A stretch of 64,000 nucleotides of DNA from Piscinibacter gummiphilus (lineage in GTDB: Bacteria > Pseudomonadota > Gammaproteobacteria > Burkholderiales > Burkholderiaceae_C), in NCBI RefSeq assembly GCF_032681285.1, contig NZ_CP136336.1, positions 3,645,001 to 3,709,000 on the forward strand, read 5' to 3'. The notes under the pieces are model-generated. The model was not told where the DNA came from. It saw nothing but the letters and a program-made list of their open reading frames with translations, and did no database searches. The position numbers were made by a program, and so were the translations under genes. Below are positions 15,281 to 19,067 of the stretch, piece by piece. How positions within the stretch are numbered: position 1 is the stretch's first letter; every line of letters starts with the position of its first letter.

Positions 15281-15744
15281 GGCAGCAGCTCCAGTCCGCG
15301 GGGCGTGTGGGCGGTGAAGATCACGCGGCGTTCGTCTCCATCGAGCGGAATGAGTTCCACGCGCAGGTCGGCGGCCGGCAACAAACCGGCAGCCTGCTCC
15401 GGCCATTCGGCGATCTTGAAACCGGGGCTTGCGAACACATCGCGGAAGCCCGCGTCCTCGAACTCCTGCGGGTCCTTGAAGCGGTAGAAATCGAAATGCG
15501 AGATTGCCAACCCTGCCACTTCGTACGACTCGAGCACTGCATAGGTCGGGCTCTTGATGCGCCCCGTGACACCGAGCGCCTGCAGCAAATGGCGTGCGAA
15601 GGTGGTCTTGCCGGCGCCCAGCGTGCCATGCAGCTCCACGAACGCATCGCGCAATGCAGGCCGTCGGGCCAGCGCTTCGGCGGTGGCCTGGCAGCCGGCC
15701 TCATCGGCCCAGTGCACGGTGCGGGTTCCTAGAATCGACGGCAA
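15277..15744 (-). CDS. tsaE: tRNA threonylcarbamoyladenosine biosynthesis ATPase TsaE
   Basis: P-loop ATPase of the TsaB-TsaD-TsaE complex that makes t6A37 on ANN-decoding tRNAs. Walker A is GTLGAGKTTFARHLLQ, followed by SPTYAVLESYE and FDFYRFKDPQEFEDAGF, all standard for TsaE. The start is uncertain. A TTG at 15744 gives 155 residues (normal length) but lies exactly opposite the ATG of queG on the other strand. A GTG at 15717 gives a 146-residue alternative and an ATG at 15831 would extend into queG. It is followed by amiC with a TTGA overlap, the same order as tsaE-amiB in E. coli. Confidence 0.92.
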   Translation of the reverse strand: MPSILGTRTVHWADEAGCQATAEALARRPALRDAFVELHGTLGAGKTTFARHLLQALGVTGRIKSPTYAVLESYEVAGLAISHFDFYRFKDPQEFEDAGFRDVFASPGFKIAEWPEQAAGLLPAADLRVELIPLDGDERRVIFTAHTPRGLELLP

Positions 15745-16835
15745 TGGATGACGCTCGCAAGTTGGACGATGAGGCACTCCTCGCGCTGATGCCCGCTCTG
15801 CGCGAGTGGGCCGCAGCGCTGGGATTTTCACAGATCGGCGTGGCCGACGTGGACTTGTCCTCCGCCGAGCCCGGGCTCATGGCCTGGCTCCACAACGGCT
15901 TTCACGGCTCGATGGACTACATGGCGGCGCATGGCCTGAAGCGGGCCCGCCCGGCAGAGCTGGTGCCGGGCACGGTGCGTGTGGTCACCGCGCGCATGGA
16001 CTACCTCCCGCGCCACACCCCCGACGATTGGCAAGCCATCGAGTGGGACCGACTGAAGCGCCCGACCGACGCCACCATCTCGCTCTACGCCCGCGGCCGC
16101 GACTACCACAAGGTGCTGCGCCACCGCCTGCAGAAGCTCGCCGACAAGCTCGCCGACGCGGTCGGCCCCTACGGCCACCGCGTGTTCACCGACTCGGCCC
16201 CGGTGCTCGAAGTCGAGCTCGCTTCGCGTAGCGGCATCGGCTGGCGCGGCAAGCACACGCTGACGTTGCACCGCGAGGCGGGCTCCACCTTCTTCCTCGG
16301 CGAGATCTACGTCGACCTGCCGCTGCCGTTGTCGGAGCCAGTCACGTCTCACTGCGGCAGCTGCAGCGCCTGCCTCGACGTCTGCCCCACGCAGGCCATC
16401 GTCGCGCCCTACCGGCTCGACGCGCGGCGTTGCATCTCCTACCTCACCATCGAGCACGACGGCCCCATCCCCGAAGAGCTGCGCCCGCTGCTCGGCAACC
16501 GCATCTATGGCTGCGACGACTGCCAGCTCGTCTGCCCCTGGAACAAATACGCGCAGCGCAACGAGCTGCCCGATTTCGACCCACGCGCCTCGCTCACCGG
16601 TGCAACGCTCCTGCAGCTGTGGGCGTGGACGGAAGACGACTTCCTGCGCCACACCGAAGGCAGCGCCATCCGGCGCATCGGCCACGCGCGCTGGCGGCGC
16701 AACATCGCGGTCGCGCTCGGCAATGCCCTGCGGGCCACGCACGACCCTGCCATCACCACCGCCCTGCAATCGAAGCGCGCCGACGCAAGCCCGCTGCTGT
16801 GCGAGCACATCGACTGGGCCCTCGCCCAGCACTAG
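15744..16835 (+). CDS. queG: Epoxyqueuosine reductase QueG
   Basis: Cobalamin- and iron-sulfur-dependent enzyme that reduces epoxyqueuosine to queuosine in tRNA, the last step of Q synthesis. 363 residues. Two ferredoxin-like clusters are visible: CGSCSACLDVCPTQAI and CISYLTIEH...CDDCQLVCPWN. The N-terminal half holds the corrinoid-binding DUF1730-type domain (DYMAAHGLKRARPAELVPG; YARGRDYHKVLRHRLQ). The TAG stop lies in the CTAG flanking the mobile element at 16836-17099, and the coding sequence is intact. The start ATG faces the tsaE start directly, with no intergenic space. Confidence 0.96.
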   Translation: MDDARKLDDEALLALMPALREWAAALGFSQIGVADVDLSSAEPGLMAWLHNGFHGSMDYMAAHGLKRARPAELVPGTVRVVTARMDYLPRHTPDDWQAIEWDRLKRPTDATISLYARGRDYHKVLRHRLQKLADKLADAVGPYGHRVFTDSAPVLEVELASRSGIGWRGKHTLTLHREAGSTFFLGEIYVDLPLPLSEPVTSHCGSCSACLDVCPTQAIVAPYRLDARRCISYLTIEHDGPIPEELRPLLGNRIYGCDDCQLVCPWNKYAQRNELPDFDPRASLTGATLLQLWAWTEDDFLRHTEGSAIRRIGHARWRRNIAVALGNALRATHDPAITTALQSKRADASPLLCEHIDWALAQH

Positions 16836-16867
16836 GGCCTGTTCACACTAAATGAGCGCCCACGTGA

Positions 16868-16958
16868 CTCAACAAAAGCCCGCCAACGAGGCGCAAAGCG
16901 CAGCTGTAGCACTTGCTACAGCGAGCATTTGCAACGCTGTGGGCGGGCTTTTGTTGAG
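16868..16958. repeat. Inner hairpin arm A of the MITE-like element
   Basis: A perfect 17-bp stem joins 16868-16884 (CTCAACAAAAGCCCGCC) to 16942-16958. Further in, GCAAA (16893-16897) pairs with TTTGC (16928-16932). At the tip a perfect 9-bp stem joins 16903-16911 to 16914-16922 (GCTGTAGCA / TGCTACAGC) with a 2-base loop. Confidence 0.88.
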
Positions 16959-16970
16959 ATCACCCGAAGG

Positions 16971-17071
16971 GCCGGGGCCTGAAGGCGCGTGCGGCGGCGT
17001 TGCAGCGTCGTTGTGTGCCGCAGGCACAAGGCCTCCGCTGCGCCTTGCCGCCCACGCCTTCAGGCCCCGGC
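16971..17071. repeat. Inner hairpin arm B of the MITE-like element
   Basis: A perfect 17-bp stem joins 16971-16987 (GCCGGGGCCTGAAGGCG) to 17055-17071. Inner pairings follow: 16991-16995 with 17047-17051, 17002-17007 (GCAGCG) with 17036-17041 (CGCTGC), and 17014-17019 (TGTGCC) with 17023-17028 (GGCACA) closing a GCA loop. Its last base also starts the outer stem. Confidence 0.88.
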
Positions 17072-17099
17072 GTGGGTGCTCATTTAGTGTGAACAGGCC

Positions 17100-17990
17100 C
17101 TAGATCAACGCCAGCCAGATCGGGATGCTCACCATCCCGAGCAGAGTCGACACCGTCACCAGCGCAGCCACATACGGCCCGTCGCCGCCCATGCGTGAAG
17201 CCAGCACGAAGGCGCTCGACGCAGTCGGCATCGCGGCGAACAGCACCGCGATGTGCCGCTGCTCCGGCGGCAAGGCGAGCGCCAGTGTGAGCCCGAAGCC
17301 GATGGCCGGCAGCACCGCGTGCCGGATGCCCAGCAGCGTGGCCGCGAGCCACGGCCCTTTCTTCAAGCCGCCCATGCGCAGCCCGGCCCCCACAGCGAGC
17401 AGGCCAATGGGCAGGGCGGCCACACCGATGCGCTGCAGCGTGGTCGCCACCGCCTCGGGGAAGGTGAGGCCCGCGGAGTTGGCCGCGAGCCCTGCGAGCG
17501 TGCTGATGATGAGCGGGTTGCGCGCAATTTCTTTCAGGTAGTTGTGCCCACCGTGCCGCGCGAGCGACCACACCGCCGCCACATTGGCCACCGGCACACA
17601 CAACGCGATCAGGAGCGCCATCCAGGCCACGCCCTGCGAGCCGCCCAGCCGCTCGGCCAGCGCGAGCGCGATGTAGGAGTTGAAGCGAAACGCGATCTGC
17701 GCGCCCGAGGCGTGCAATCGCGCGTCGACCCCGGGCCACCGCCCGAGCGCAAACGCCAGCGCCACGCCGCACAGCATCACGCCCACGCCCGCCGCCGCCA
17801 GGCCCAGCGTCTGCGCCGGCTGCAGCGGGGTCTTCACGATCGAGTTGAAGAGCAGCACCGGGAACAGCAGGTAGTACACCAGCCGTTCGGCACTCTCCCA
17901 GATGGGGCGGTCGAGGGCGGTGTAGCGGCAGAGCAGGAAGCCGCACGCGATCAGCAGAAAGTCCGGCAGCAGCAGAAGGCCATTCGACAT
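17100..17990 (-). CDS. AEC family (auxin efflux carrier-like) transporter
   Basis: Inner-membrane carrier of the AEC/malonate-type family, 296 residues with about ten hydrophobic segments in two halves ([20 protein letters not shown] at the N-terminus; a second half from [18 protein letters not shown]). The start giving [11 protein letters not shown] is chosen because the longer frame adds only non-family sequence. Substrates of bacterial members include malonate, malate and amino acids, and nothing here narrows it. The TAG stop uses the right-hand CTAG of the MITE-like element. The gene diverges from the TctC receptor gene, with about 105 bases between the starts. Confidence 0.88.
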
Positions 17991-18095
17991 CGCGCGAGTT
18001 TGCAGTACAACGCCCTGCGTAGTTTCCACAGTCGCCAGTGCTTCTTCGCCCGGGCAGCATGGCTTCTTCGCCGATCCAAACCCCCAGGAGTACGC

Positions 18096-19067
18096 ATGCA
18101 CCGCAGACATCTGATCGCCACCGCGCTCGCCCTGTCAGCCACATCCCCCTTCGCCTTCGCGCAGGCCTACCCCGCGAAGCCCGTGCGCCTGGTCGTGCCC
18201 TTCGCCCCCGGGGGCACCACCGACATCGTCGCCCGCGTGGTCTCGGAAAAGATCAACGCCGCCCTCGGGCAGACCATGATCGTGGAGAACAAGGCCGGCG
18301 GCGGCGGCTCCATCGGCGCCAACGAAGTCGCCAAATCTGCGCCCGACGGCTACACCCTCGGCATGGCCACCGTCTCCACCACGGCGGCCAACCCTGCGAT
18401 CAACCCCAAGATCCCGTACAACCCGATCACCGACTTCGCGCCGATCATCAACGTGGCCGCCACGCCCAACGTGATCGCGGTGCACCCGAGCTTCCCGGCG
18501 CGCGACTACAAGGGCTTCGTCGCCGAGCTGAAGAAGAACCCGGGCAAATATTCGTTCAGCAGCTCCGGCACCGGCGGCATCGGCCATCTGCAGATGGAGC
18601 TCTACAAGAACCTCTCGGGCACCTTCGTCACCCACATCCCGTACCGCGGCGCAGGCCCTGCCCTGAACGACACCGTGGCAGGCCAGGTGCCGATGATCTT
18701 CGACAACCTGCCTTCCGCACTGCCCTTCATCAAGGACGGCCGCCTGATCGCCATCGTGGTGGCAGCACCCACCCGCCTGAGCGTGCTGCCCGATGTGCCC
18801 ACCTTCAAGGAAGTGGGCCTGGAGCCGGTGAACCGCATGGCCTACTACGGCATCTACGGGCCCAAGGGACTGCCGAAGGACGTGATCGACAAGGTCCATG
18901 GCGCGGTGAAGAAGACGCTGGAAGACCCGACCGTGAAGAAGCGCATCGAAGACACCGGCTCGCTCATCGTGGCCAACACGCCCGAGCAGTTCAGCGCGCA
19001 GATCAAGGCCGAGTTCGAGGTCTACAAGAAGGTGGTCGCGCAGCAGAAGCTGACCCTCGACAATTGA
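18096..19067 (+). CDS. Bug/TctC-type tripartite tricarboxylate transporter receptor
   Basis: Periplasmic solute-binding protein of the Bug family, typical of Burkholderiales. 323 residues; signal peptide [28 protein letters not shown] lies five bases before the ATG, which supports the start over the long upstream frame. Diagnostic segments are [60 protein letters not shown] and [10 protein letters not shown]. No TctA/TctB membrane subunits are nearby, which is common for Bug receptors. Ligand unknown. xerD starts five bases after the stop. Confidence 0.93.

Follow-up and report, generated by a model that had tools for sequence, protein, structure and literature searches.

The window, the whole 64,000-nucleotide stretch of Piscinibacter gummiphilus DNA analysed here, carries a queG gene and an AEC-transporter-like gene that converge on a 266-bp non-coding element with terminal inverted repeats, as in a MITE (Table 1). 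The TAG stop of the queG frame occupies positions 16833-16835 and that of the convergent frame positions 17102-17100. A left CTAG holds the first stop and a right CTAG the second, just as the initial annotation had described. That annotation also gave the element a length of 264 bp between the two CTAGs. CTAG does stand on both sides, but the true layout is TA, 266 bp and TA: the element itself starts with the G that follows the left TA and finishes with the C that precedes the right one.

Table 1. Genes and element features at the queG/AEC junction
Feature	Position	Strand	Evidence
queG (longest ORF 15594-16835)	15828..16835	+	TIGR00276 QueG, E 1.4e-133
Left TA of the duplicated target site; completes the TAG stop of queG together with the first G of the element	16833..16834		Sequence, empty sites
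Mobile element GGGCC...GGCCC, 266 bp	16835..17100	+	Sequence, copies, empty sites, flanks
Left terminal inverted repeat	16835..16864	+	First arm of the inverted repeat without the flanking CTA
Arm 1: core hairpin on an outer stem that has A4/T4 tracts	16868..16958	+	Inverted repeat, fold
Arm 1 core	16881..16946	+	Match to arm covariance model R1, E 3e-10
Arm 2: core hairpin on an outer stem, in inverted orientation to arm 1	16971..17071	-	Inverted repeat, fold
Arm 2 core	16988..17053	-	Match to arm covariance model R1, E 1.1e-11
Right terminal inverted repeat	17071..17100	-	Inverted-repeat analysis
Right TA copy; completes, with the C at 17100, the TAG stop of the minus-strand gene	17101..17102		Sequence, empty sites
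AEC-transporter-like gene	17100..18110	-	TIGR00946 auxin efflux carrier, E 2e-18, far below the model's curated cut-off

Including their flanks, the terminal arms (16832-16864 and 17071-17103) span 33 nt with one mismatch and are perfect over the first 26. Two inner inverted repeats (16868-16887/16939-16958 and 16971-16995/17047-17071) each have 17 perfect base pairs from the base. Both features had been read correctly from the start, as had the capacity for a Y-shaped fold on either strand. The predicted fold energies of the two strands are -205.9 and -206.5 kcal/mol, compared with shuffled means of about -115 (z = -17.6 and -17.5; 0 of 200 shuffles equally good). Rfam returned only three miRNA matches in the window, all far below the gathering score, and no match at gathering score in eight loci.

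Copies, empty sites and the duplicated sequence

The 266-bp element is real and mobile. Its own genome contains one full copy of the window's subtype plus two divergent two-armed elements. These two lie at G000:C1 3045764-3046029 (L112 1448-1713) and, with different ends (GGGCCTGCTGGCATATGAA), near 670533-670704 (L348). Matches at E 0.001 occur in 9 of the 11 genus genomes, its own included. The search of related genomes that had been proposed for copies found near-identical ones elsewhere: genome G008 has at least five full copies at 97% (mutual identity 97.7-99.6%), and G009 has six, two at 95-97% and four at 86%. Plasmid and phage sequences searched for the window's subtype gave no match.

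The flanks of 13 sites were joined at one TA and searched in the 11 genus genomes. Orthologous places without the element aligned for 12 of these sites (none for L020), and nine of the 12 kept a single TA at the junction in at least one empty place. The junction itself is changed in the empty places of L112, L006 and L026. At the queG/AEC junction, where empty sites in close relatives had been suggested as a check, one CTAG/TTAG stands without the element in G006, in G009 and in G008, where 17 bases across the junction are identical. The terminal repeats, TA duplication, empty sites and copies in relatives all support the original description of the element as MITE-like.

A duplication of CTAG, read initially as the YTAR duplication of IS5-type transposases, is ruled out. 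The would-be 4-bp repeats are unequal in 39 of 71 TA-flanked elements, and five of 14 full copies have unlike bases just outside the TA on their two sides. The duplicated sequence is TA. Of 84 distinct elements between 140 and 350 bp long, 71 are flanked by it left and right, a figure that is partly selected because many elements were found by a pattern requiring TA at one end. YTAR is instead the preferred target (64/71), with CTAG at 32 of the 71 elements, TTAG at 15, CTAA at 12, TTAA at 5 and others at 7. IS630 elements likewise duplicate TA within CTAG.

Some related loci have unusual layouts. At L034 (5340-5520), an arm-bearing element has apparently entered a CTAG in the core of a second element's arm. 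Among the short cases, such as L167 (1503-1520) and the L144 type, are minimal 18-bp palindromes, GGGCCTGTTAACAGGCCC, with TA flanks, which have the ends without an inside; others measure 25-97 bp.

The target of the window's element was the TA of a CTAG that the overlapping TAG stops of the two convergent genes shared. The TA was duplicated on insertion, after which both stops again read TAG, as the sequence and the empty sites show. Both genes are intact because the element begins with G, so that insertion at the TA of a TAG or TAA leaves TAG; both stops are restored because it also ends with C. The earlier proposal of an insertion at overlapping stops that changed neither protein is thus supported by the sequence and the empty junctions.

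Preference for stop codons

A neighbouring gene's TAG lies at an edge in 33 of 60 elements, and at both edges in six of these, a count that would include a TAG created by an insertion within a gene. The 60 were taken from 70 elements by leaving out nine under 140 bp and L043. Among ordinary CTAG sites in 528 kb, 18 of 145 are stops, 59 are intragenic and 68 intergenic. The stop excess of the elements over these sites is significant (Fisher p 7e-10; 4e-5 without intragenic sites), and selection against insertion inside genes explains part of it. A smaller control, drawn from the loci of the elements themselves, counted four stops among 26 CTAG sites. Genes for the stop counts, and for the orientation count of single-arm elements given below, came from a simple codon-score caller that had been trained on the window and works less precisely in other genera.

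A candidate source of mobility

Six loci carry IS-like pairs of the element's ends, five of them 823-829 bp apart and one 397 bp apart. Five pairs have a mismatch in the 12-base motif at one end; CTA/TAG flanks five of the six pairs and TTA/TAG the sixth. Frames from three of these loci match PF13340, in two cases also DDE_Tnp_1, and each IS half-frame has NF033580 as its best NCBIfam match, slightly below the whole-protein cut-off. The terminal GGGCCTGTTNAC is common to the element and these IS427-like ISs, which are 823-829 bp long with TA flanks and, in those examined, two frames. Passages of PMC3281130 describe IS427-group members as mostly 832-865 bp long, with 2-bp repeats and in some cases two overlapping frames. 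The link to the IS5 family made in the initial annotation, which had advised looking for an IS with the same ends, is borne out by such ISs with shared ends, TA flanks and PF13340 and DDE domains.

The element is non-coding and has no DDE transposase gene, whereas the ISs with the same ends have one. Most likely it would have been moved in trans by an IS427-like IS5-family transposase acting on those ends. We only infer this movement, because the IS427-like transposase occurs in one of the 11 genus genomes, which is not the element's own, and PF13340 was found in one of 10 chosen genomes. This makes it a MITE-like element with a putative mover.

Probable conservation of the arms as folded single strands

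Elements were aligned by taking 52 of the 70 (240-275 bp), reducing them to 29 under 90% identity and removing L194 and L197, which align badly. Among the 99 predicted pairs of the resulting 27-element alignment, 75 show changes on both sides. With one constant pair (27 G.T cells) set aside, G.T and A.C cells are equally frequent (58 each), so the outer stems and ends show no strand bias. This equality argues against selection on one strand of the whole element, and selection of the kind expected for the small RNA that had been offered as one possibility is not seen.

The arms differ from this. An arm alignment was built from 56 of 97 extracted arms, 18 having been excluded by name as mis-cut, repeated or truncated and the others by length and an 85% identity filter. 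All 56 come from elements with GGGCCTGTTNAC-type ends, and they are the basis of covariance model R1. In this alignment, 89.1% of cells pair, compared with 58.0% after shuffling and 27-41% when slid, and the helices contain 307 double-change cells. The unpaired core bases A11, G13, C14, A58, A59 and G61 are fixed at 93-100%.

On the core-forward strand there are 48 G.T cells against five A.C, counts that ignore relatedness. A structure obtained independently on the reverse strand has 16 pairs in common with the forward structure and on these again gives 48 and five. Its two extra pairs add an invariant A.C column, which changes the ratio to 48 against 61 and which we read as loop; a hand-set list of 18 pairs gives 49 against 25. 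The G.T:A.C ratio is 15:1 in arm 1 and 12:0 in arm 2. Because the two arms are on opposite DNA strands, the wobble bias follows the core and not the element. Outside the family the ratio is 21:4, nine of the 21 being at one pair and perhaps inherited. The comparison, whose wobble counts take no account of relatedness, suggests that the arm is selected as a folded single strand of one orientation, either RNA or ssDNA.

Spread of the ends and of the arm module

The element's end pattern occurs in 76 of 200 family genomes (one control match) and in 40 of 398 phylum genomes (control match in six genomes). In the phylum genomes, 266-bp elements with quite different stems recur alongside shorter and longer ones. 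R1 finds arms in 13 of 14 chosen genomes, with six in the window's own genome (three elements) and none in G006. Genomes G158 and G590 have 43 and 70 arm matches, although PF13340 was not found there. Among 200 sampled phylum genomes, 53 have R1 matches at E 1e-5, with copy numbers per genome that are lower bounds, since no more than 26 candidates were scored in each. Many R1 arms lie between other ends, namely GGGCCTGCTGGCATATGAA (the window's own genome, L348), GGAGGGTCTGCAAAACCCC, AGAGGCTGTGAG, GTGCAGTGTTTCACGC, GGAAGCTCTGAACAGGCCC and GGCAACGCTGAACAAGTCC. Some of those listed may be remote variants of others, and the arm is counted on at least five different ends.

Two matches were obtained in 75 of the 78 loci selected as two-armed, some loci of this survey being repeats of one place. 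In all 75, one element being included twice and most being related by descent, the forward orientation falls on the plus strand for the left arm and on the minus strand for the right. With one forward copy per strand, the forward hairpin of a two-armed element would be met first from either side. A relative of the two-armed L394 is present on four plasmid records (NZ_CP010421.1, NZ_CP017294.1, NZ_CP040452.1 and NZ_CP066311.1), two from Azotobacter and one each from Pseudomonas and Halomonas, where the match has no annotated feature.

Fourteen elements with AGAGGCTGTGAG-type ends have a single arm (L012, L013, L017, L018, L023, L329, L339, L341, L352, L358, L361, L363, L365 and L366). In most of them the called gene stop is a constant short distance away, without exception downstream of the arm, and their orientation at stops looks non-random.

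Possible roles of the module

The element carries two inverted copies of a conserved hairpin module that is also found between other transposon ends, which the initial annotation had no means of seeing. Covariation, fixed loop bases and wobble bias indicate that the module would act as a folded single strand in one defined orientation, RNA or ssDNA. We consider it quite likely that the account as a whole is right: a MITE-like 266-bp transposon, an IS427-like mover in trans and a folded single-strand arm module. The simplest alternative is a plain MITE whose arms are functionless long palindromes, kept perfect by template switching or half-to-half conversion. Such a duplex-level process predicts the equal G.T and A.C variation of stems and ends, and nested and truncated copies do exist. 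It would, however, also erase mismatches, yet several unpaired core bases stay fixed amid varying helices, and the strand bias of the core tracks core orientation on both arms. We regard this alternative as quite unlikely.

Transcription offers another role. At the queG/AEC site itself, the likeliest effect could be to end or insulate transcription from both genes, at slightly less than an even chance. More generally, the elements could be mainly mobile bidirectional terminators or mRNA 3'-end structures for convergent genes, which on balance we doubt. They sit directly at gene ends, 33 of 60 at a TAG stop. Such a role is plausible in Burkholderiaceae: 21 of 58 arms have A4 or longer on the 5' side of the core and none has T4, where background 22-mers gave 51 and 73 of 3,330. 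However, 37 of the 58 arms have neither tract, a simple terminator scan at the element found none, and single-arm elements show no sense-strand rule: among 27, the 3' end of the abutting gene is upstream of the arm in 13 and downstream in 17, so such a rule was rejected. A terminator role is not general because 13 of 32 arms outside Burkholderiaceae have the reverse tract T4 and three have A4. The bidirectional roadblock envisaged in the initial annotation is thus possible at this site but fails as a general property of the arms.

Alternatively, the arms may be ssDNA hairpins for a DNA-processing enzyme in the manner of REPs and REP transposases, with the outer ends as a second mobility system. 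The strand-specific fold, the presence of a single forward hairpin on each strand in all 75 two-match loci (one element twice), the independence of the module from the outer ends and the lack of a rule relative to the abutting gene are all consistent with this. TA flanks and shared IS ends already explain movement, and we consider this reading of the arms unlikely. More generally, the module could be bound by a host or element factor that would aid the persistence or spread of such elements, though at clearly less than an even chance.

Relation to known repeats

The usual view of MITEs is that of ISs whose insides have decayed. Here the structure of the inside is retained across a phylum and found again between different ends, which makes the question of what, other than a transposase, selects for such content a testable one. 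The elements also offer a natural collection of harmless stop-codon insertions. In the open-access literature searched, which leaves most subscription papers outside its scope, the end and core strings had no match, and subject searches found related repeats, none with this arm module. The chances seem even that the arm is an undescribed, portable, strand-specific hairpin module (RNA or ssDNA, with fixed internal loops) spread across Pseudomonadota within unrelated transposon ends.

The IS427 group of the IS5 family, as covered in the same passages of PMC3281130, is represented here by ISs with the same terminal GGGCCTGTTNAC; the element differs in having no transposase, and the arms are not part of the ISs seen. 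REPs and BIMEs, as portrayed in parts of PMC3733652 and PMC2817692, are also palindromes near genes that form inverted pairs, and their GTAG end often supplies a TAG stop. REPs are palindromes of 20-40 bp with GTAG at one end, whereas the element is 266 bp long with transposon-like ends, a TA duplication and another core, preceded by CNAG. The Pseudomonas fluorescens repeats R0, R2 and others (Silby 2009, PMC2718517) are, in the portions that deal with them, MITE-like, share ends with ISs and are common between convergent gene ends; the sizes and structures listed there differ, which sets them apart by description. Also similar are the bacterial MITEs with TA termini of Delihas 2007 (PMC2229807). 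In the sections concerned, these are likewise short, non-coding and intergenic, with inverted repeats and stable folds; the Caulobacter CIR is described as having two arms with a linker, and others there as having a single stem-loop. Compared with these, the inner arms described here form a conserved module that is common to elements with different ends.
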